A stretch of DNA of 37,974 bases, taken from positions 3,683 through 41,656 of the forward strand of contig NZ_JAUTDR010000034.1 of the NCBI RefSeq assembly GCF_030649675.1, written 5' to 3'. The notes under the pieces were generated by a model that was not told where the DNA came from, did no database searches, and saw only the letters and a list, made by a program, of their open reading frames with translations. Shown here in pieces: positions 27,721-37,846 of the stretch (position 1 is the first letter of the stretch; every line of letters starts with the position of its first letter). The translations under genes were made by a program, and so were the position numbers. This DNA comes from Haliea sp. E1-2-M8. Its GTDB lineage: Bacteria > Pseudomonadota > Gammaproteobacteria > Pseudomonadales > Halieaceae.

Positions 27721-28995
27721 TCAATACTTGAATATAGTGTCGAGGACTATGCGGTCGAGGTCGCGGCCGGCGCCAAGGGCGTTTTCACCCGACTCATTGT
27801 CGACGTAGACAGACACGCCCATATGCCATTGCTTGTCGATAGCGTAGCGGCCGGACAGTTTATGGCCGCGGATGTCGGCGCCACCGCCGGCGACATTGGA
27901 ATCGCGCAACAGGCCAAACACCGCGTCGGCTTCCACTCGCTCATATTGGTAACCCAGGTCCCAGCTGCCGGCGCCACTGGCCTTGCCCAGGCGCGCGCCC
28001 GCCAGCCACCCCGTGTCGTACTCATCGGCATCCAGGTTCTGCACATAGTGCGCATATACTGCCAGCGGCAGCGCCATCCCGCTCCAGGTCAGGTCGGAAA
28101 ACAGCTCCAGTTCCTCGAAATTGTTGCTGTAGGTGCAGCGACCGTCGGAGTCGCAAGCGAAGCTGTTGCCATAAAAGTCATCGCTGTCACCATAAAGGAC
28201 TGTTTTCCCCTGTACGGGGATATCGAGATAACCGGCACCGGCTGTAAACGCGAGTTGCTCTCCCAGGTCCAGGGTAAACCCGGATTGCACGCCGTAGTAG
28301 AAGGTATGGTTGGCCCGATTGCTGTCGCTCTCCAGACCAATGGCGGCGGCATTGAGAAAGACACCGTTACCGGACCAGCCCAGCGCAATCCCCTCCGGCG
28401 TGTAGTCCGAGTCCCACAACAGGCCGGAGCCCTGCGGCCGGTAGAAGTTGTTCTTCATCTTGCCACCGGTCAGGTAAGCCCCGTTGAAAGGCTTCCAGGT
28501 GACCCAGGCCTGATCGAGGAAGAGATCCTTGCTGCTGCCACCGCTGCCCAGGGTAGTGTTGCCTGAAGGCGGCGCTTCATTGCCCGCTGCGATGCGCAGC
28601 CCCACTTCGACTGAGTTGGGCAGCTGCGCGACCAGGCCCGCCCGAGCGCGCAGGCGGTGCCGGCTGCGCACATCCCGCGCTTCGATATCGATTTCTTCAT
28701 AGCGGTAGCGGAAGTCACCGCTGAGGCGGATCGTGTCGGACCAGTGACCTGCGGGCCGGGACGGCGCCGCATCGGGCGCCCGGGTGAGCTCCAGCTCGGA
28801 AACCGCACGGGCAGTGTTTTCACGCAGTTCTGCGTTTTCCTGCTCCAGCGCGGATACCCGCTGTATCAGGGCGGTCATCTGTGCCCGCAACTGCTCGAAT
28901 TCGGCGTCGCTGACCGCGGCCTCGGCGTTGCCGCTGGTCACAATGCCTACCAGAACGGCAGACCACGCTGCCGTCCCCAATCTTGTTGCGCTCAT
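27721..28995 (-). CDS. Putative outer-membrane porin, phosphate-regulated
   Basis: A 424-residue exported protein: signal peptide ending near GNAEA/AVSD (residue 26), a short coiled coil at about 30-65 (QMTALIQRVSALEQENAELREN), then a beta-barrel-like region from about residue 85. That region is rich in alternating hydrophobic strands, Gly and Tyr, and the protein ends in an aromatic residue (FKY), as outer-membrane barrels do for BAM recognition. It resembles the putative-porin family (Porin_5-like) more than OprP/OprO. A single CDSDGRC pair of cysteines lies in a predicted loop. Just upstream is an array of five PhoB half-sites, and the gene lies next to phoU, so it is probably induced by phosphate starvation and may admit phosphate or phosphorylated compounds. 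Substrate choice is inferred. Confidence 0.85.
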   Translation of the reverse strand: MSATRLGTAAWSAVLVGIVTSGNAEAAVSDAEFEQLRAQMTALIQRVSALEQENAELRENTARAVSELELTRAPDAAPSRPAGHWSDTIRLSGDFRYRYEEIDIEARDVRSRHRLRARAGLVAQLPNSVEVGLRIAAGNEAPPSGNTTLGSGGSSKDLFLDQAWVTWKPFNGAYLTGGKMKNNFYRPQGSGLLWDSDYTPEGIALGWSGNGVFLNAAAIGLESDSNRANHTFYYGVQSGFTLDLGEQLAFTAGAGYLDIPVQGKTVLYGDSDDFYGNSFACDSDGRCTYSNNFEELELFSDLTWSGMALPLAVYAHYVQNLDADEYDTGWLAGARLGKASGAGSWDLGYQYERVEADAVFGLLRDSNVAGGGADIRGHKLSGRYAIDKQWHMGVSVYVDNESGENALGAGRDLDRIVLDTIFKY

Positions 28996-29028
28996 GTACC
29001 GCCCTCACCTGTCTATTTCAGCGCCATG

Positions 29029-29083
29029 ATGCATGACGCTTTAATGTCAATTTTATGTCTTTTTTATGACATTGTCATGACAA
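29029..29083 (-). promoter_or_regulatory. Five tandem PhoB half-sites before the porin gene
   Basis: Read on the minus strand from 29083, five consecutive 11-bp units each start with a seven-base core of the form NNGNCAT: TTGTCAT, ATGTCAT, AAGACAT, TTGACAT and GCGTCAT, each followed by a 4-bp, mostly A-rich spacer. The E. coli Pho box is two such units (CTGTCAT plus a 4-bp spacer, repeated). The first two units form the best box (29083-29066). A possible -10 (TGAAAT) lies at 29020-29015, and the ATG is at 28995. Confidence 0.85.
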
Positions 29084-29099
29084 GCGAGTACGCGCTGCC

Positions 29100-29825
29100 C
29101 TAGTGTCGATCCTCCACCTGGTTGAGCAGTTCATCCGGCTCGACATGGCGCACATCCAGCCCCCGCACCAGGTAGACTACGCTCTCGGCGATATTGCAGG
29201 CGTGGTCTCCCACCCGCTCGAGGCTGCGCAGCGCCCACATCTGCCCCAGCACGGGACCGATGGTGCGCGGATCCTCCATCATGAACGTCACCAGGCTACG
29301 CATCGCTGTGGCGTACTCGGCGTCCACGGAGCGGTCGGCGACCACGGTTTCCACCGCCATATCGACATCCAGGCGGGCAAAGGAATCCAGCGCTTGCCGC
29401 AACATCTCGCCGACGTGGTTGCTGATATGCCGGATCTCGACAAAGCTCCCGGCGCTGGACGCAGCTTCCTCGGAGGCCTTGACCGCCTGTCGGGCAATTT
29501 TACTGGCTTCGTCGCCGATGCGCTCCAGATCAGTGGTGACTTTGGAAATCGCCAGTACCAGGCGGAGGTCACTGGCCGCAGGGTGCCGCCGCGCGAGGAT
29601 ACGAAAGCATTCCTCGTCAATGCTGATTTCCAGGTCATTGACCTGCTCATCGCCCGCGATAACCTCCTCCGCCAGGCCGCTGTCACGGTTGAGGAGGGAG
29701 TCCACGGCCTTGCCGATCTGCTGCTCCACCAGCCCACCCATTTCCAGCAGGTGGTTCTTGACGGCCTCCAGCTCGGCGTTGAACTGGGCTGATATGTGTT
29801 GTTTATAGCTATCCTGGTTCAGCAT
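29100..29825 (-). CDS. phoU: Phosphate transport regulator PhoU
   Basis: PhoU links the state of the PstSCAB transporter to PhoR and keeps the Pho regulon off when phosphate is plentiful. The 241-residue all-helical protein contains two PhoU repeats, each with the metal-binding helix motif: ERIGDEASKIAR in the first and ERVGDHACNIAESV in the second. The frame is open to 29918, but the ATG at 29825 (LNQDSYKQHISAQFN) has GAGGA upstream and matches the family. It follows pstB by 10 bp and is the last gene of the pst run before the separately controlled porin. Confidence 0.96.
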   Translation of the reverse strand: MLNQDSYKQHISAQFNAELEAVKNHLLEMGGLVEQQIGKAVDSLLNRDSGLAEEVIAGDEQVNDLEISIDEECFRILARRHPAASDLRLVLAISKVTTDLERIGDEASKIARQAVKASEEAASSAGSFVEIRHISNHVGEMLRQALDSFARLDVDMAVETVVADRSVDAEYATAMRSLVTFMMEDPRTIGPVLGQMWALRSLERVGDHACNIAESVVYLVRGLDVRHVEPDELLNQVEDRH

Positions 29826-29835
29826 GACAGTGTCC

Positions 29836-30663
29836 TCAGCCGTAGCGACCGGTGATGTAATCCTCGGTCTGCTTCTGTTCCGGGTTGGTGAACAGCGTAT
29901 CGGTGTCGTCGTACTCAATCAACTTGCCCATGTACATGAAGGCCGTCATGTCCGACACCCGGGCTGCCTGCTGCATATTGTGGGTCACGATCACGATGGT
30001 ATAGCGCGACTTGAGTTCGTAGATCAACTCCTCGATCTTTAGCGTGGAGATGGGGTCCAGGGCCGAGGCTGGCTCGTCGAGCAGCAGCACTTCCGGCTCC
30101 ACCGCAATGGTGCGGGCAATCACCAGACGCTGCTGCTGGCCCCCGGACATCCCCAGGGCGCTCTCGTGCAGGCGGTCCTTGACCTCCTCCCACAGCGCCG
30201 CGGCACGCAGGGATTTTTCCACTACCTCATCGAGGATCCGCTTCTTGTTGATTCCCTGGATGCGCAGGCCATAGGCGACATTTTCATAGATACTCTTGGG
30301 AAAGGGGTTGGGCTTCTGGAACACCATGCCGATGCGCCGGCGCAACGCCGCGACATCCACCCGTCGGTCGTATACGTCCTCAGTTTCCAGCAGTAGCCTG
30401 CCATTGATACGGCAGCCATCTACCAGGTCGTTCATGCGGTTGATGCAGCGCAGCAGGCTGGATTTGCCGCAGCCGCTCGGGCCGATGAAGGCGGTCACCC
30501 GCTGGCGGGGGATTTCCAGATTGATATCGAACAGGGCCTGCACATCGTTGTAGAACAGGTTGAGGTTTTCCATCCGCAGACTGGTGTGCGCAGGCCCGAG
30601 CTGGCCCGTAGAGGGGCCCTGGTCGCGCTTCAGCGCCTGGATATCGAGAGCATGGGTTTGCAT
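29836..30663 (-). CDS. pstB: Phosphate ABC transporter ATPase PstB
   Basis: PstB is the cytoplasmic ATPase of the high-affinity phosphate importer. The 275-residue protein has Walker A (GPSGCGKSS), the Q-loop ([17 protein letters not shown]), the ABC signature ([15 protein letters not shown]), Walker B ([14 protein letters not shown]) and the switch His ([15 protein letters not shown]). The N-terminus carries about 30 extra residues before [11 protein letters not shown], which is common in gammaproteobacterial PstB. The start lies 13 bp after the pstA stop. Confidence 0.97.
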
Positions 30664-30676
30664 GGTGGGATCCTGT

Positions 30677-32389
30677 CTAGTGTTCCAGCGACTTGTAGCG
30701 TTCCCGCAGGCGGTTGCGCAGGCTCACGGCGGCGAGATTCAGCAGCGCGATGATCAGCACCAGCAGCAGTGCTGTAGCATAGACCAGAGGCCGCGCCGCC
30801 TCCACATTGGGACTCTGGAAACCCACATCATAGATGTGGAAACCCAGGTGCATGAACTTCTGGTCCAGGTGCAGATAGGGATAATTGCCGTCCAGCGGCA
30901 GGGTCGGCGCCAGTTTCACCACGCCGACCAGCATCAGTGGTGCCACTTCGCCCGCGGCCCGGGCCACCGCCAGGATCAGACCCGTCATCATTGCCGGACT
31001 GGCCATGGGCAGAACCACCCGCCAGAGGGTTTCCGCGCGGGTCGCACCCAGCGCCAGGGACCCTTCGCGCAAGCTTTTCGGAATCCGCGACAAGCCCTCC
31101 TCTGTCGCCACAATCACCACCGGCAGGGTGAGCAGGGCCAGGGTCAATGAGGCCCACATCAGGCCCGGAGTGCCGAAGGTTGGCCGGGGCAGGGCCGCCG
31201 GGAAGAACAGCTGGTCGAGTTCACCGCCGACGAAGTAAATGAAGAAGCCGAGACCAAACACGCCGTAGACGATCGATGGCACCCCGGCCAGGTTGTTGAC
31301 CGCAATCCGTATGGTGCGGGTGATGAAGCCCTGGCTGGCGTATTCACGCAGGTAGACGGCTGCGACCACGCCGAAGGGAGTAACGATGATGGACATCAGG
31401 ATCACCATCAGCACGGTACCGAACATGGCAGGAAAAATACCGCCCTCGGTATTGGCTTCGCGGGGCTCGGCAGAAAGGAATTCCCAGAGCCGTTCAAAGT
31501 ACAGCCCCACCTTGGCGGGTATGCTCATGGCATTGGGCTGATAGGCGCGCACCACCTTGGCGATGGGCAGGGTAACTACCCGGCCGTCGGCGAGCTCGGC
31601 GCTGTAGCTGTGGTCCTTGATACTGTCGTAGAGAACATAGAGCTCTTCCTGCAGAACGCGGAAGCGGGCTTCCTGCTCTGCCCGCAGGCTGGCGAGATCC
31701 GCCTGCGCTGCCGCATCCAGGGCTCCGTCCATCTCCAGTTCACGCTCGCGCAGGCGCAGGCGCTCCAACTCGTAGTTGATCGCACCGATCTCCACCCGCT
31801 CGATCTGGCGAATCTGCTCGCGCACCGCGTCGGTTTCGGCAATAAGTTCCTGCAGCGCCTGCCAGGTAAGCTCCGGCCCCTCCTCCGCGACCGTGACCTC
31901 GGGCGTATTGAAGCGGCTGACGCCGCGCAGGTAGCCGTAGAAATCACCCCATTCCAGGCGCTCGATCACCAGCGCGTCGGAGGGGAAACGGCGCTCACCG
32001 AACTGCTCATTGATCAGCCAGGTAAAATCGGTGCCGAGGAAGTCGCGGTTGCCCTGCTTGAGCAGGGTGCGCTGGTAAAAGGGCCCCGGGCCCTGCAGCT
32101 CGATGCCTGCGCCCTCCAATTGAGTGCCGACTACCTCGACCTCTTCCACCACCTCGCCCAGCAGCTCCCGCGACTGGTCCTGGTAGCTCACCGTTACCGC
32201 CAGCACATCCGCCGGCCAGAAGTGGCTGAGGCCGCGCACGGCGAGCAGCAGCAGCAGACCCATTACCGCAATCACGCTGACACTCACCGCAGCGCCGTTG
32301 AGCCAGATCAGCGGCTCACCGCTGCGCAGCCAGGATTTAACCCCGGGAGCGCGATCACTGTGCAGCTCCTGTTCGTTGATCATTTTCAT
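30677..32389 (-). CDS. pstA: Phosphate ABC permease PstA, long form
   Basis: One of the two membrane subunits of the phosphate importer. The first transmembrane helix (about residues 30-48) is followed by a large periplasmic region to about residue 300, much longer than in E. coli PstA (296 residues in all). Residues about 173-256 in it are strongly heptad-like ([19 protein letters not shown] and the following [11 protein letters not shown]), a predicted coiled coil. The permease domain then runs from about 315 to 570 with the BPD loop ([22 protein letters not shown]). I chose the ATG at 32389, which overlaps the pstC TGA as TGATG. An ATG two codons later is possible. The long form is known in Pseudomonas-like bacteria; the purpose of the insertion is not known to me. 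Confidence 0.93.
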
Positions 32390-34632
32390 CACAGGGACCC
32401 GTATTTTACCCGCAGCCGCTGTCGCACCAGCTCGGCGATAGTATTGACCGCAAAGGTGAACATGAAGAGCACGAATGCCGCGAGGAACAGGACCCGGTAA
32501 TGCGTGCTGTCCACTTCCGCCTCCGGCACCTCCACCGCGATGTTGGCCGACAGCGTGCGCATACCCTCGAAGATGTTGACGTCCATGATCGGCGTGTTGC
32601 CGGTGGCCATGAGCACAATCATGGTCTCGCCCACTGCCCGCCCCAGGCCGATCATCAGGCCCGAGAAGATCCCCGGGCTGGCGGTGGGAATGACCACGCC
32701 CACGAGGGTCTGCCAGGGTGTGGCACCCAGAGCCAGGCTGCCGTAGCTCAGGTGCTTGGGCACGGAGAAGATGGCGTCCTCGGCGATGGAGAAGATGGTG
32801 GGTATCACCGCCATGCCCATGGCGATACCCACCACCAGCGCATTGCGCTGATCGAAAGATATTCCCAGCTCTGTGGTGATCCAGCGGCGCATATCGCCGT
32901 CGAACAACAGCAACTCGAAGCTGTCGTTGGCGGCAAAGCTTAGGTAGCCAATGAGGATCACTACGGGAATCAGTACCGCCGCGTGCCAACCCTCAGGCAC
33001 CCAGGAGCGAATGGAGAGCGGCAGCCGTGACCAGAGGAAGGCGAACAGCAATACGCCGACCGGCAGGGCCAGCATGAGGGTGACCACCGCGGTAAGCTTG
33101 TCCTCTATAAGCGGCGCCAGCCACAGCCCCGCCAGGAAGCCCAGAATCACCGTGGGCAGCGCCTCCATCAGCTCGATCATCGGCTTGATCTTGCGCCGCA
33201 GGGGTGCGGCCATGAAATAGGCAGTGTAGATAGCGCCACAGATCGCTAGCGGAGCGGCAATCATCATGGTGTAGAACGCGGCCTTCAGAGTGCCGAAGGC
33301 CAGCGGGGCAAAACTGTACTTGGGTTCGAAATCGGTGTCGGCGGAGGACGACTGCCAAACATAGGCGGGCTCGTCATAGCTCTCGTACCAGACCTTGTTC
33401 CAGAGAGCGGACCAGGAGATGTCCGGATGTTCGTTGTGGATACGCCAGCTGCGCAGGTCACCGTTGCTATCGACGTAGACAAGTGCGTCCGCCCGCGGGG
33501 AAATCGCCGCCGCGCCCGCGCCCAGGGGCAGCGCATCCTGACTCAGCAGACGCCGGTGGGAGGTGGTGTGGTAGATCTGCAGTTCACCGTCGCGCCCCAG
33601 GGCCAGAAAGCCCTTGCGGCGCTGTTCAGTTACCAACTCGCTGACAACAACGCCACCGGTATCAAACTCGCGAATGCGCTGCAGATAATTGCCACCCTCC
33701 CCATCGCGCACCATGAAGAACTGCGCCAGCTCGCCGCGGTCGGAGGCCGCCAGCAGGGAGATACCCCCCAGCAGCATGGTACTGGTCGAGAGGCGCCCGC
33801 CACCGGTAAACAGCTCACCCTGGCTGACCACCTGCAGGTAGCCGTTGCTGTCACGCTGCCGCAGGTTCAGCACGGTGAAGCCGCCGGCTTTATCCACGCG
33901 AAACAGCCAGTCCAGGTTCTCGTCAATATGAAAAGCTGCAGTTTCACCGCCCAGGGCGGGTATTTTCAGCTCCTCCTGCTCCAGCGACACGGCGCCGGTG
34001 ATGAAGTTTTCCTCGCGATTAACCCGCTGTGCCCGCAGCTCCCCCGCCTGGTTCAGGACGGCGACTACCAGCCCTTCGCTGTTATCGCCCACCGCCAGTT
34101 TTACCACCGGCACAGGGCCAAAATCCAGCGCTAGATCAGGGTAGTGACGCTCTATCCTCGGGGTGACGACCTGCTCTCCGCCCGGATAGGTCAACCGATA
34201 CTCATGGCTGTACATGGAGATACTGCCGGAGCTGTGGGCCGTCGCGAACAACCGGCCCTCGGCCCCCTCTGCCGCCACTGCGGTAACGGCCCCCAGTTCC
34301 GGCGCGAGGCCTTCACTGAGTACCAGTTCTCCGGTGTCGAGCACAAAGAAACGTGCTGTGCCGTCGGCAAAGACGCCAAAACCCAGTTCCGTCTGCTCCT
34401 CAACCGCCAGGTGCAGTGGCGCCTCGCCGAAGGGAGAGTCGACGGAGGCCCGCAGTTCCATGCTGGCATTGCTGAACAGGGGCAAAACTTCATACAGCAG
34501 GTAGAAAAAGATCAGCAGGATGGCGATCAGCACCCCGGAGCCGCCGGCCGTCACGGCGACAGTCGCCGCGCGATCCTTGAAGTGGCGCCATCGGGGGGTA
34601 AAGGGCGAAACGTGCTCGCTTAATCTGGCCAA
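32389..34632 (-). CDS. pstC: Phosphate ABC permease PstC, long form
   Basis: The other membrane subunit of the phosphate importer. At 747 residues it is more than twice the size of E. coli PstC. After a first membrane helix (about 29-52) comes a periplasmic region of nearly 380 residues rich in short beta repeats such as LFATAHSSGSISMYS, LGRDGELQIYH and VYVDSNGDLRSWRI, suggesting a WD40/propeller-like domain. From about residue 440 the permease core follows (TLKAAFYTMMIAAPLAICGAIYTAYF, IELMEALPTVILGFLAGLW, SLALGATPWQTLVGVVIPTASPG). The start is a TTG at 34632 with only a weak ribosome site. No ATG lies near, so the exact N-terminus is uncertain. Confidence 0.93.
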   Translation of the reverse strand: MARLSEHVSPFTPRWRHFKDRAATVAVTAGGSGVLIAILLIFFYLLYEVLPLFSNASMELRASVDSPFGEAPLHLAVEEQTELGFGVFADGTARFFVLDTGELVLSEGLAPELGAVTAVAAEGAEGRLFATAHSSGSISMYSHEYRLTYPGGEQVVTPRIERHYPDLALDFGPVPVVKLAVGDNSEGLVVAVLNQAGELRAQRVNREENFITGAVSLEQEELKIPALGGETAAFHIDENLDWLFRVDKAGGFTVLNLRQRDSNGYLQVVSQGELFTGGGRLSTSTMLLGGISLLAASDRGELAQFFMVRDGEGGNYLQRIREFDTGGVVVSELVTEQRRKGFLALGRDGELQIYHTTSHRRLLSQDALPLGAGAAAISPRADALVYVDSNGDLRSWRIHNEHPDISWSALWNKVWYESYDEPAYVWQSSSADTDFEPKYSFAPLAFGTLKAAFYTMMIAAPLAICGAIYTAYFMAAPLRRKIKPMIELMEALPTVILGFLAGLWLAPLIEDKLTAVVTLMLALPVGVLLFAFLWSRLPLSIRSWVPEGWHAAVLIPVVILIGYLSFAANDSFELLLFDGDMRRWITTELGISFDQRNALVVGIAMGMAVIPTIFSIAEDAIFSVPKHLSYGSLALGATPWQTLVGVVIPTASPGIFSGLMIGLGRAVGETMIVLMATGNTPIMDVNIFEGMRTLSANIAVEVPEAEVDSTHYRVLFLAAFVLFMFTFAVNTIAELVRQRLRVKYGSL

Positions 34633-35682: not shown

Positions 35683-35735
35683 ATGGGGCTCCCGTCTTTA
35701 AACAACGTTGAAGTCGCACACGGTAACCGCCGTAT

Positions 35736-35753
35736 GTGACAAAATTATGACAA
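35736..35753 (-). promoter_or_regulatory. Pho box of pstS
   Basis: The minus strand reads TTGTCATAATTTTGTCAC, two PhoB half-sites (TTGTCAT and TTGTCAC) at 11-bp spacing, close to the CTGTCATAAATCTGTCAC consensus. It lies about 53 bp upstream of the pstS ATG. The -10 region 10 bp on (TACCGT) is poor, as expected of a PhoB-dependent promoter. Confidence 0.88.
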
Positions 35754-35771
35754 TTCCGTGTCGGGCAGCGC

Positions 35772-35802: not shown

Positions 35803-37068
35803 AAAGACCAGGGTAAAGGTGCTGCCCACCCCGGGGGTACTCTCAATACGCAGCTCCGCCCGATGGGCCGCCGCCACATGCTTGACGATGGCCAGGCCAA
35901 GACCGGTACCGCCGGTGGCCGAAGAGCGGCTGTCATCCACCCGGTAAAAACGCTCAGTCACGCGCGGCAGGTGAACGGAATCTATGCCTATACCCCGGTC
36001 CTGCACCGAAAGCAGCAAGTGTTCACCCTCCCGGCGCCAGCGCACTGTCACAACAGTGTCATCCTTGCTGTATTTAAACGCATTCAGCACCAGGTTGGAT
36101 ACCGCGCTGTGCAGTTCCCGGTAATCTCCTGCTACCTTCTCCGCGGTCTCCAGTTGCACAGCCAGTTTGCGCCCGGGATGAGAAGTCTGCAACTCGTCCT
36201 CCATCTCCTGCAGCAGTGCGCCAATATTGACCTGCTCGCGCCTGGGCTGGGTGCGCACGCTCTCGATTCGGGAGAGCCAGAGCAGGTCCTTGAGCAGCGT
36301 TTCCATGCGCGCTGCCTGCTGCTGCATTTGCTGCAGGGGCCGGTGGAAGCGCTGCTCAAGCTGGTCTGCGTTGGCGAGAATGGTTTCCAGGTAACCCTTG
36401 ATGACCGTCAGCGGTGTGCGCAGTTCGTGCGAGACGTTGCCGACAAAATCGCGCCGCATCTGCTCCAGCTTGGCTTCCTTGGTGACATCCCGCACGAACA
36501 CCAACCGGTCGCCGCCGCCGAAGGAGGTGACCGTAAACTGCAGGTATTGCACATGCTCCCCCTTGAGCACCACCTGCAGCGGACTATCGAAGGCGGCAGC
36601 GAGGAAATAACGATGAAACTCGGGCAAGCGCACCAGGTTGAGCAGAGCCTGGCCGCGATCGGCGGGATAACGCAACCCCAGCAACCGCTCTGCCGCCGTG
36701 TTGCTCCACTCGATCGCACCGCTGGCGGTAACCATGACCGCGCCGTCGTGCATGGCAGACAGGGATCCCTGCAGGTAGTCCAGCCGCGACTGCAACTGCG
36801 CCTGCCGCCCCTGGGCCGCACGCTGCACCTGGTACAGGCGGTCGTAGATCACGCCCCAGATTCCGGGGGCCTCAGGCGGTTCCACCGATGTGTCCGCCAG
36901 CCAGCTAAGCAGGCGCTGCAGCTGATATAGCCAGCGCGCCAGCAATGCCAGCAGCGCGAGGGCCAACACCAGCCAGGGGGCCCCCACCAGCCAGCCGACC
37001 ACGAGGGCGACAGCGGAGAGCAAAACCAGCCGGCGCAGCTCCACCAACCAGGCGCCGGCAGCATTCAC
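35794..37068 (-). CDS. phoR: Phosphate-regulon sensor kinase PhoR
   Basis: PhoR is the inner-membrane histidine kinase that phosphorylates PhoB under phosphate limitation. The 424-residue protein has two N-terminal hydrophobic helices (about 12-32 and 33-50) with almost no periplasmic loop, a basic linker and a PAS domain (about 97-195). The HisKA domain with FVGNVSHELRTPLTVIKGY (His214) follows, then the HATPase domain (NLVLNAFKYSKD, QDRGIGID, GTGLGLAIVKHV). The lack of a sensor loop fits signalling through PstSCAB and PhoU. The start is a GTG at 37068 that overlaps the phoB TGA as GTGA, so the two are translationally coupled. Confidence 0.95.
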   Translation of the reverse strand: MNAAGAWLVELRRLVLLSAVALVVGWLVGAPWLVLALALLALLARWLYQLQRLLSWLADTSVEPPEAPGIWGVIYDRLYQVQRAAQGRQAQLQSRLDYLQGSLSAMHDGAVMVTASGAIEWSNTAAERLLGLRYPADRGQALLNLVRLPEFHRYFLAAAFDSPLQVVLKGEHVQYLQFTVTSFGGGDRLVFVRDVTKEAKLEQMRRDFVGNVSHELRTPLTVIKGYLETILANADQLEQRFHRPLQQMQQQAARMETLLKDLLWLSRIESVRTQPRREQVNIGALLQEMEDELQTSHPGRKLAVQLETAEKVAGDYRELHSAVSNLVLNAFKYSKDDTVVTVRWRREGEHLLLSVQDRGIGIDSVHLPRVTERFYRVDDSRSSATGGTGLGLAIVKHVAAAHRAELRIESTPGVGSTFTLVFPG

Positions 37069-37775: not shown

Positions 37776-37812
37776 CGGTCACAATTCTCCCGTTACTATT
37801 CCACTTGGGAGT

Positions 37813-37846
37813 ATTAGATGAGGAAATTGTGACAATAAAGTTACAG
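37813..37846 (-). promoter_or_regulatory. Pho box and -10 element of phoBR
   Basis: The minus strand reads CTGTAACTTTATTGTCAC at 37846-37829, two PhoB half-sites 11 bp apart (CTGTAAC, TTGTCAC). Exactly 10 bp further is TCTAAT (37818-37813), a -10 at the normal spacing for PhoB-dependent promoters. The start site would be near 37806, about 31 nt before the phoB ATG. This supports autoregulation of phoBR. Confidence 0.87.

Follow-up and report, generated by a model that had tools for sequence, protein, structure and literature searches.

Hierarchical binding of PhoB to pho boxes is reportedly the subject of a study of that title. Among the described systems closest to the one considered here is the Escherichia coli phoB promoter where, in the accessible part of its description, a weak PhoB site (KD 4.9 uM) located around the -10 brings about repression when PhoB is high, and this repression is largely lost when the site is mutated (Gao and Stock 2018, PMC6194859). 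Multiple boxes are described at the phosphate-controlled ugp promoter (PMC4415409), and outside the enteric PhoB system the operators of Streptomyces PhoP comprise varying numbers of 11-nt repeats, and those of the cyanobacterial regulator SphR three tandem boxes with 3-bp linkers (PMC4415409, PMC1906773), in each case as given in excerpts of these papers.

We analysed a stretch of 37,974 nucleotides from Haliea sp. E1-2-M8 (contig NZ_JAUTDR010000034.1; the whole stretch is hereafter the window), in which a porin gene lies directly behind the pst-phoU genes and is preceded by an array of predicted PhoB half-sites. The gene and its immediate flanks are as follows.

27721-28995, minus strand: porin gene, 424 aa, Porin_5 (PF16930, Pfam E 1.1e-29)
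29003-29010, minus strand: Shine-Dalgarno-like AGGTGAGG, read from the sequence, with GAGG invariant in 8/8 genomes of the genus
29100-29918, minus strand: phoU (PF01895, E 9.5e-44), directly upstream of the porin gene on the same strand

Upstream of phoU are an ABC ATPase, two permeases and a phosphate-binding-type protein, to which the names pstB, pstA, pstC and pstS were assigned by family and gene order, and then phoR (PF11808) and phoB (a response regulator with Trans_reg_C). The two permease ORFs after pstS (30677-34632, minus strand) encode 770 and 747 aa, with a transporter domain at the C-terminal end only; as mechanically called ORFs they share 601 bases, and their true starts may therefore lie further in. 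A terminator scan of 28900-29300 returned no terminator-like site between phoU and the porin gene. Porin matches at E <= 0.001 were found in 55 of 140 family genomes, and an order-wide search recovered the porin at E <= 1e-30 in 27 of 390 genomes, identity outside the family being 29-44%. Literature searches, mostly made without the family name, found no paper on this porin promoter.

Read along the minus strand from 29083 to 29029, the array consists of TTGTCATGACA ATGTCATAAAA AAGACATAAAA TTGACATTAAA GCGTCATGCAT, that is, five G.CAT cores in exact 11-bp steps. The preliminary description of this DNA had drawn attention to these five in-phase units, and their reality is borne out: 200 simulations of the window (order-1 Markov) never produced a run of more than two units, no other G.CAT run in the window exceeds two units, and a three-unit pattern has 3 matches in the window, every one of them within the array, where 100 shuffles average 0.03. 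Its placing of PhoB-type half-sites in front of a porin likewise holds, the gene being Porin_5 by Pfam and the half-sites being predicted from their match to the motif. The units are unequal, however, with half-site scores of 10.4, 10.0, 0.9, 5.8 and 6.9 bits for units 1 to 5. The parts into which we divide the array are listed below.

29062-29083, minus strand: Pho box formed by units 1-2 (TTGTCATGACA ATGTCATAAAA), the predicted activating PhoB site; 10.4 + 10.0 bits, and with the -10 the best combined register in 8/8 genus members
29050-29055, minus strand: -10 hexamer TAAAAT, 16 bp after the T of unit 2; 4.8 bits (1.0% of background hexamers score as high); in 8/8 the hexamer is TAAAAT or TAATAT
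29051-29061, minus strand: unit 3 (AAGACATAAAA), a weak half-site mostly coinciding with the -10; 0.9 bits in the window, the genus ranging from -5.5 to 0.9
29040-29050, minus strand: unit 4 (TTGACATTAAA), a half-site over the discriminator and predicted start; 5.8 bits in 7/8 and 2.6 in one, with the G, C, A and T columns invariant in 8/8
29029-29039, minus strand: unit 5 (GCGTCATGCAT), a half-site in the first bases predicted to be transcribed; 6.9 bits here, 5.3-11.4 in 8/8, with an invariant core

The promoter itself was located by reference to a family-wide set, comprising the best 50 of 58 porin matches and the best 30 of 60 pstS matches. When these promoters are aligned by their Pho box, a second block of information appears at T+16 to T+21 of the second half-site, in columns that lay outside the box model, and corresponds to a -10 hexamer of the TAttcT or TAnTGT type. 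The promoters aligned were those whose box reaches 8 bits: 38 of 42 porin promoters from outside the genus and 23 of 30 pstS promoters (8 of them from this genus). A promoter model was trained on 41 pstS and porin promoters from 13 genera with boxes of at least 17 bits, the genus of the window and L020 being left out, and the -10 score is positive in 37 of these 41. Under this model the best register in all eight genus members is units 1-2 followed by TAAAAT or TAATAT, at -10 scores of 4.8-6.9 bits, and registers 2-3, 3-4 and 4-5 have nothing -10-like after them in any of the eight genomes (scores of -3.1 to -10.9). Taken as a bare PhoB box, register 2-3 scores as high as register 1-2 or higher, both in the window (19.7 vs 18.8 bits) and in its closest relative, L007 (20.2 vs 15.7). 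A plain sigma-70 consensus scan selects the same -10, as ATGACA-17-TAAAAT. Two elements of a PhoB-activated sigma-70 promoter are present here, namely two 11-bp direct repeats with TGTCA-type cores in units 1-2 and, in the TAAAAT at T+16 of the second half-site, a family-spaced -10.

Unit 3 resembles a half-site because the first T of the -10 falls at the T of a would-be third in-phase CAT. Its core G is lost in six of the eight genus genomes; C, A, T and the -10 stay. We are highly confident, as far as motif scores and spacing can tell, that units 1-2 would act as an ordinary Pho box and that unit 3 is mostly the -10. Simply counting half-sites can mislead: in a Pho promoter of this fixed geometry the -10, through its first T, can be mistaken for the end of a third half-site. 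The same spacing as in the porin promoter is found at pstS and phoB.

35732-35753, minus strand: pstS Pho box, 24.4 bits, with -10 TACCGT at 35720-35725 (4.2 bits)
37825-37846, minus strand: phoB Pho box, 18.3 bits, with a weak -10 TCTAAT at 37813-37818 (0.1 bits)

It had been claimed that these two genes have only two units each. Each does have two good units, but phoB also has a weak third position (1.4 bits), which is also its -10, and at pstS the Pho box is preceded by a weak third unit in phase with it (CCGACAC, 2.6 bits), at 35754-35764 on the minus strand. The place of the third pstS unit reads GACAC or GACAT in seven of eight genus members and TACAC in the eighth. Reading by eye also reveals a single half-site-like CGGTCAC at 37776-37786 on the plus strand, which is the antisense strand of phoB, right at the phoB start codon.

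Units 4-5 lie beyond the -10. The transcription start is predicted near 29042-29044, which would place unit 5 from about +5. As a pair, units 4-5 score 10.6 bits (vs about 18.9 for units 1-2), a score that ranks ninth among the 75,906 22-mers of the window, and the eight 22-mers that outscore them lie at the three Pho promoters, in this array and at one site inside phoR. Judged by sequence score, the promoter has what a dual operator would call for, a second half-site pair that overlaps the start and is weaker than the activating pair.

The porin and the same five slots occur in all eight genomes of the genus, and in the genus alignment the array is nearly frozen, with none of the 19 columns directly upstream of the box invariant. 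The cores of units 2, 4 and 5 are invariant in 8/8; in unit 1 the T, G, T and A are invariant, and its C and last T vary because G005 alone reads CTGTAAC, which is a normal half-site by the model (7.6 bits). The preliminary description had held that relatives keeping the first two units alone would speak against its reading, and what we find is that no genus member has lost the core of unit 4 or of unit 5. All eight core letters of these two units are invariant, against 19 of 43 leader columns overall (hypergeometric 5e-4; the motif was fixed beforehand, and this count is the sole control on the choice of the eight core columns). The eight conserved copies do not amount to eight independent events, as the genus has two deep lineages only.

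Half-sites in leaders were counted in promoters with a combined score of at least 17 and a leader of at least 10 bases, a set that comprises 8/8 genus porins, 32/42 other porins and 19/30 pstS promoters. At a threshold of 5 bits the sense strand of the genus leaders has 16 half-sites, of which unit 4 accounts for 7, unit 5 for 8 and other places for 1; the antisense strand has 1, and 200 shuffles gave a mean of 1.35 and a maximum of 5. The pstS leaders contain 2 such half-sites in 19 promoters, which is the chance level (shuffles 1.66).

We infer that PhoB binds this promoter and places the porin under phosphate control, and we propose, with belief and doubt in equal measure, that it is a phosphate-starvation promoter with a two-part PhoB operator in which units 1-2 activate and units 4-5 act as a brake. 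PhoB~P on units 1-2, over the -35 region, would recruit sigma-70 RNA polymerase to the TAAAAT at 29050-29055, and units 4-5, in the same 11-bp phase, would provide a weaker second PhoB site over the start and the first transcribed bases. Once PhoB~P became abundant, units 4-5 would be occupied and would compete with RNA polymerase; units 3-5 overlap the core promoter, start site and leader, so PhoB bound there should hinder the polymerase. The porin would then be induced early and subsequently capped. If units 4-5 do brake, the porin is a target gene that is switched on and then limited by one and the same regulator, and such a cap would plausibly suit an outer-membrane channel that is costly in excess. 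The braking reading predicts that mutating units 4-5 would raise late expression, an effect of opposite sign to that expected if all five units activated.

The alternative that survives best, which we consider doubtful, is that only units 1-2 bind PhoB: unit 3 would be the -10, unit 4 the discriminator and unit 5 one arm of an mRNA-stabilising hairpin, with the half-site cores of units 4-5 being coincidence or relics. The structure in question is the following.

29020-29040, minus strand: predicted leader hairpin with unit 5 within its 5' arm; predicted in 8/8 genus leaders, with shuffle z-scores of -0.15 to -3.34

Possible hairpins can also be seen by eye, without folding, in other porin leaders, in addition to the one predicted throughout the genus. 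Some of the genus stems barely beat shuffles, however (z -0.15 and -0.70), and a search for compensatory changes across the eight genus leaders found no hairpin pair altered on both sides. The changes that do occur fall mainly on the 3' arm, the half-site arm, GTCATGC, being nearly fixed, and unit 4, only one base of which belongs to the stem, nevertheless has four invariant core letters. An Rfam search of 28900-29200 at E <= 1 returned one match, far under its threshold (15.7 vs 60 bits). The leader hairpin may matter, yet it leaves unit 4 unexplained.

Whether or not a hairpin is involved, the notion that units 4-5 are inert draws on other lineages, and on the description, in an excerpt of one study, of most intragenic E. 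coli PhoB sites as apparently inert (PMC10294691). In the nearest genus, g19 (L014 and L015; porin 63% identical), no half-site of at least 5 bits follows the -10 place, and L015 scores -5.4 and -13.6 bits at the positions of units 4 and 5; both g19 porins are absent from the 32 other-genus leaders because they fall below the cut-off. Of these 32 promoters, 21 have no leader half-site, and the other 11 together hold 14 of at least 5 bits (against 4 on the antisense strand; shuffle mean 5.67, largest of 200 shuffles 14), a number that becomes 7 at a threshold of 7 bits, where the largest shuffle gives 6. Inertness is harder to reconcile with the recurrence of a half-site at the unit-5 place in other lineages, where L016, L020, L021 and L030 have one. 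Mapped onto a porin tree with 30 rows out of 50 (pstS being represented by 21 rows out of 30, and L020 being labelled by hand), occupancy of the unit-5 place takes at least 3 changes. Two porin leaders from another genus, L027 and L030, have a run of three half-site-like units after the -10 and ahead of the start codon, near the Shine-Dalgarno sequence.

The reading in which units 4-5 brake can be extended beyond the genus, although only tentatively and with doubt outweighing belief: phosphate-regulon porins in several lineages of the family may carry an in-phase PhoB site on the start that caps expression at high PhoB~P, and this site may have arisen or been kept more than once. If true, an operator that couples activation to repression, as is known for the regulator gene phoB, would also serve an outer-membrane target gene.

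The preliminary description favoured another explanation, that five PhoB monomers load cooperatively and give activation stronger or more graded than at pstS. We find this improbable. Five in-phase units are indeed kept across the genus, bar the G of unit 3, and multi-box arrays exist at E. coli pstS and ugpB, but here units 3-5 overlap the core promoter with its -10, which lies inside unit 3, as well as the start and the leader; a family-spaced -10 is available to register 1-2 only, and unit 3 is a poor half-site (0.9 bits) that drifts. Nor does the view of five units as a departure from the usual pairs hold, given the long in-phase arrays at those two E. coli promoters and at other genes of the same genome. 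In the latter, other genes have four- and five-unit runs of the looser core GNCAY, so the count of five is not unique.

L116, about 2130-2184: five-unit PhoB-like run before a choice-of-anchor I protein
L117, about 2132-2175: four-unit PhoB-like run before a type II secretion C gene
L118, about 2288-2331: four-unit PhoB-like run before a PAP2 and glycosyltransferase pair

The genes behind these runs are candidate members of the phosphate regulon. The runs have no family-spaced -10 inside them and a weak -10-like hexamer after the last unit (-1.0 to 1.2 bits), so their extra units seem to lie upstream of the -10, although these scores are too low for certainty; those of the porin, in contrast, lie downstream of it. 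The loose three-unit pattern has 19 matches in the window's genome vs 10 for the reversed pattern, and many three-unit runs are therefore attributable to chance. A strong PhoB-like box (18.5 bits) is also present inside phoR, on the antisense strand at 36045-36066 (plus), and G001-G006 have three- or four-unit runs at a similar distance upstream of pstS. The box inside phoR may be inactive, or its persistence may reflect codon constraint.

A second downstream PhoB promoter served by units 4-5, with a poor -10 after unit 5, would follow the second box of E. coli pstS, where a run of four to five units has a better -10 (TATTTT, 4.5 bits) after unit 4, but we rejected it as very improbable: neither unit 4 nor unit 5 is followed by a family-spaced -10, their T+16 hexamers scoring -4.6 or lower in 8/8 genus members, and a start there would presumably leave little leader before the Shine-Dalgarno sequence.

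With units 1-2 taken as the activating pair and units 4-5 as the putative brake, the porin promoter is like that of E. coli phoB in combining a strong, activating upstream Pho box with a weaker PhoB site on the core promoter, the cap being measured there and only proposed for the porin. It is unlike it in that, in the part of that work drawn on here, the weak site of E. coli phoB is antisense, has a 5-bp rather than 6-bp spacing between conserved tracts and controls a regulator gene (PMC6194859); porin units 4-5 are sense-oriented, keep the normal 11-bp phase and lie downstream of the -10. In the present model the two half-sites of the E. coli phoB weak site score 7.4 and 1.0 bits, which puts units 4-5 (5.8 and 6.9 bits) in a comparable range.

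E. coli pstS is like the porin promoter in having four to five in-phase half-sites with a weak unit 3 (11.4, 11.4, 2.3, 9.9 and 4.0 bits), and differs in that a better T+16 -10 follows its unit 4, whereas none follows porin units 4-5. Since the second pair at E. coli pstS has its own -10 after it, that pair can activate, and a downstream pair therefore need not repress. E. coli ugpB resembles the porin promoter in its seven in-phase slots, five of them of at least 5 bits; its geometry is different or looser, as the two best registers examined have -10 scores of -1.2 and -6.2. E. coli phoA has TATAGT at T+16, the place of the porin -10. The operators of Streptomyces PhoP and cyanobacterial SphR also comprise several repeat units, but they belong to other regulators, with other consensus sequences, in other lineages.
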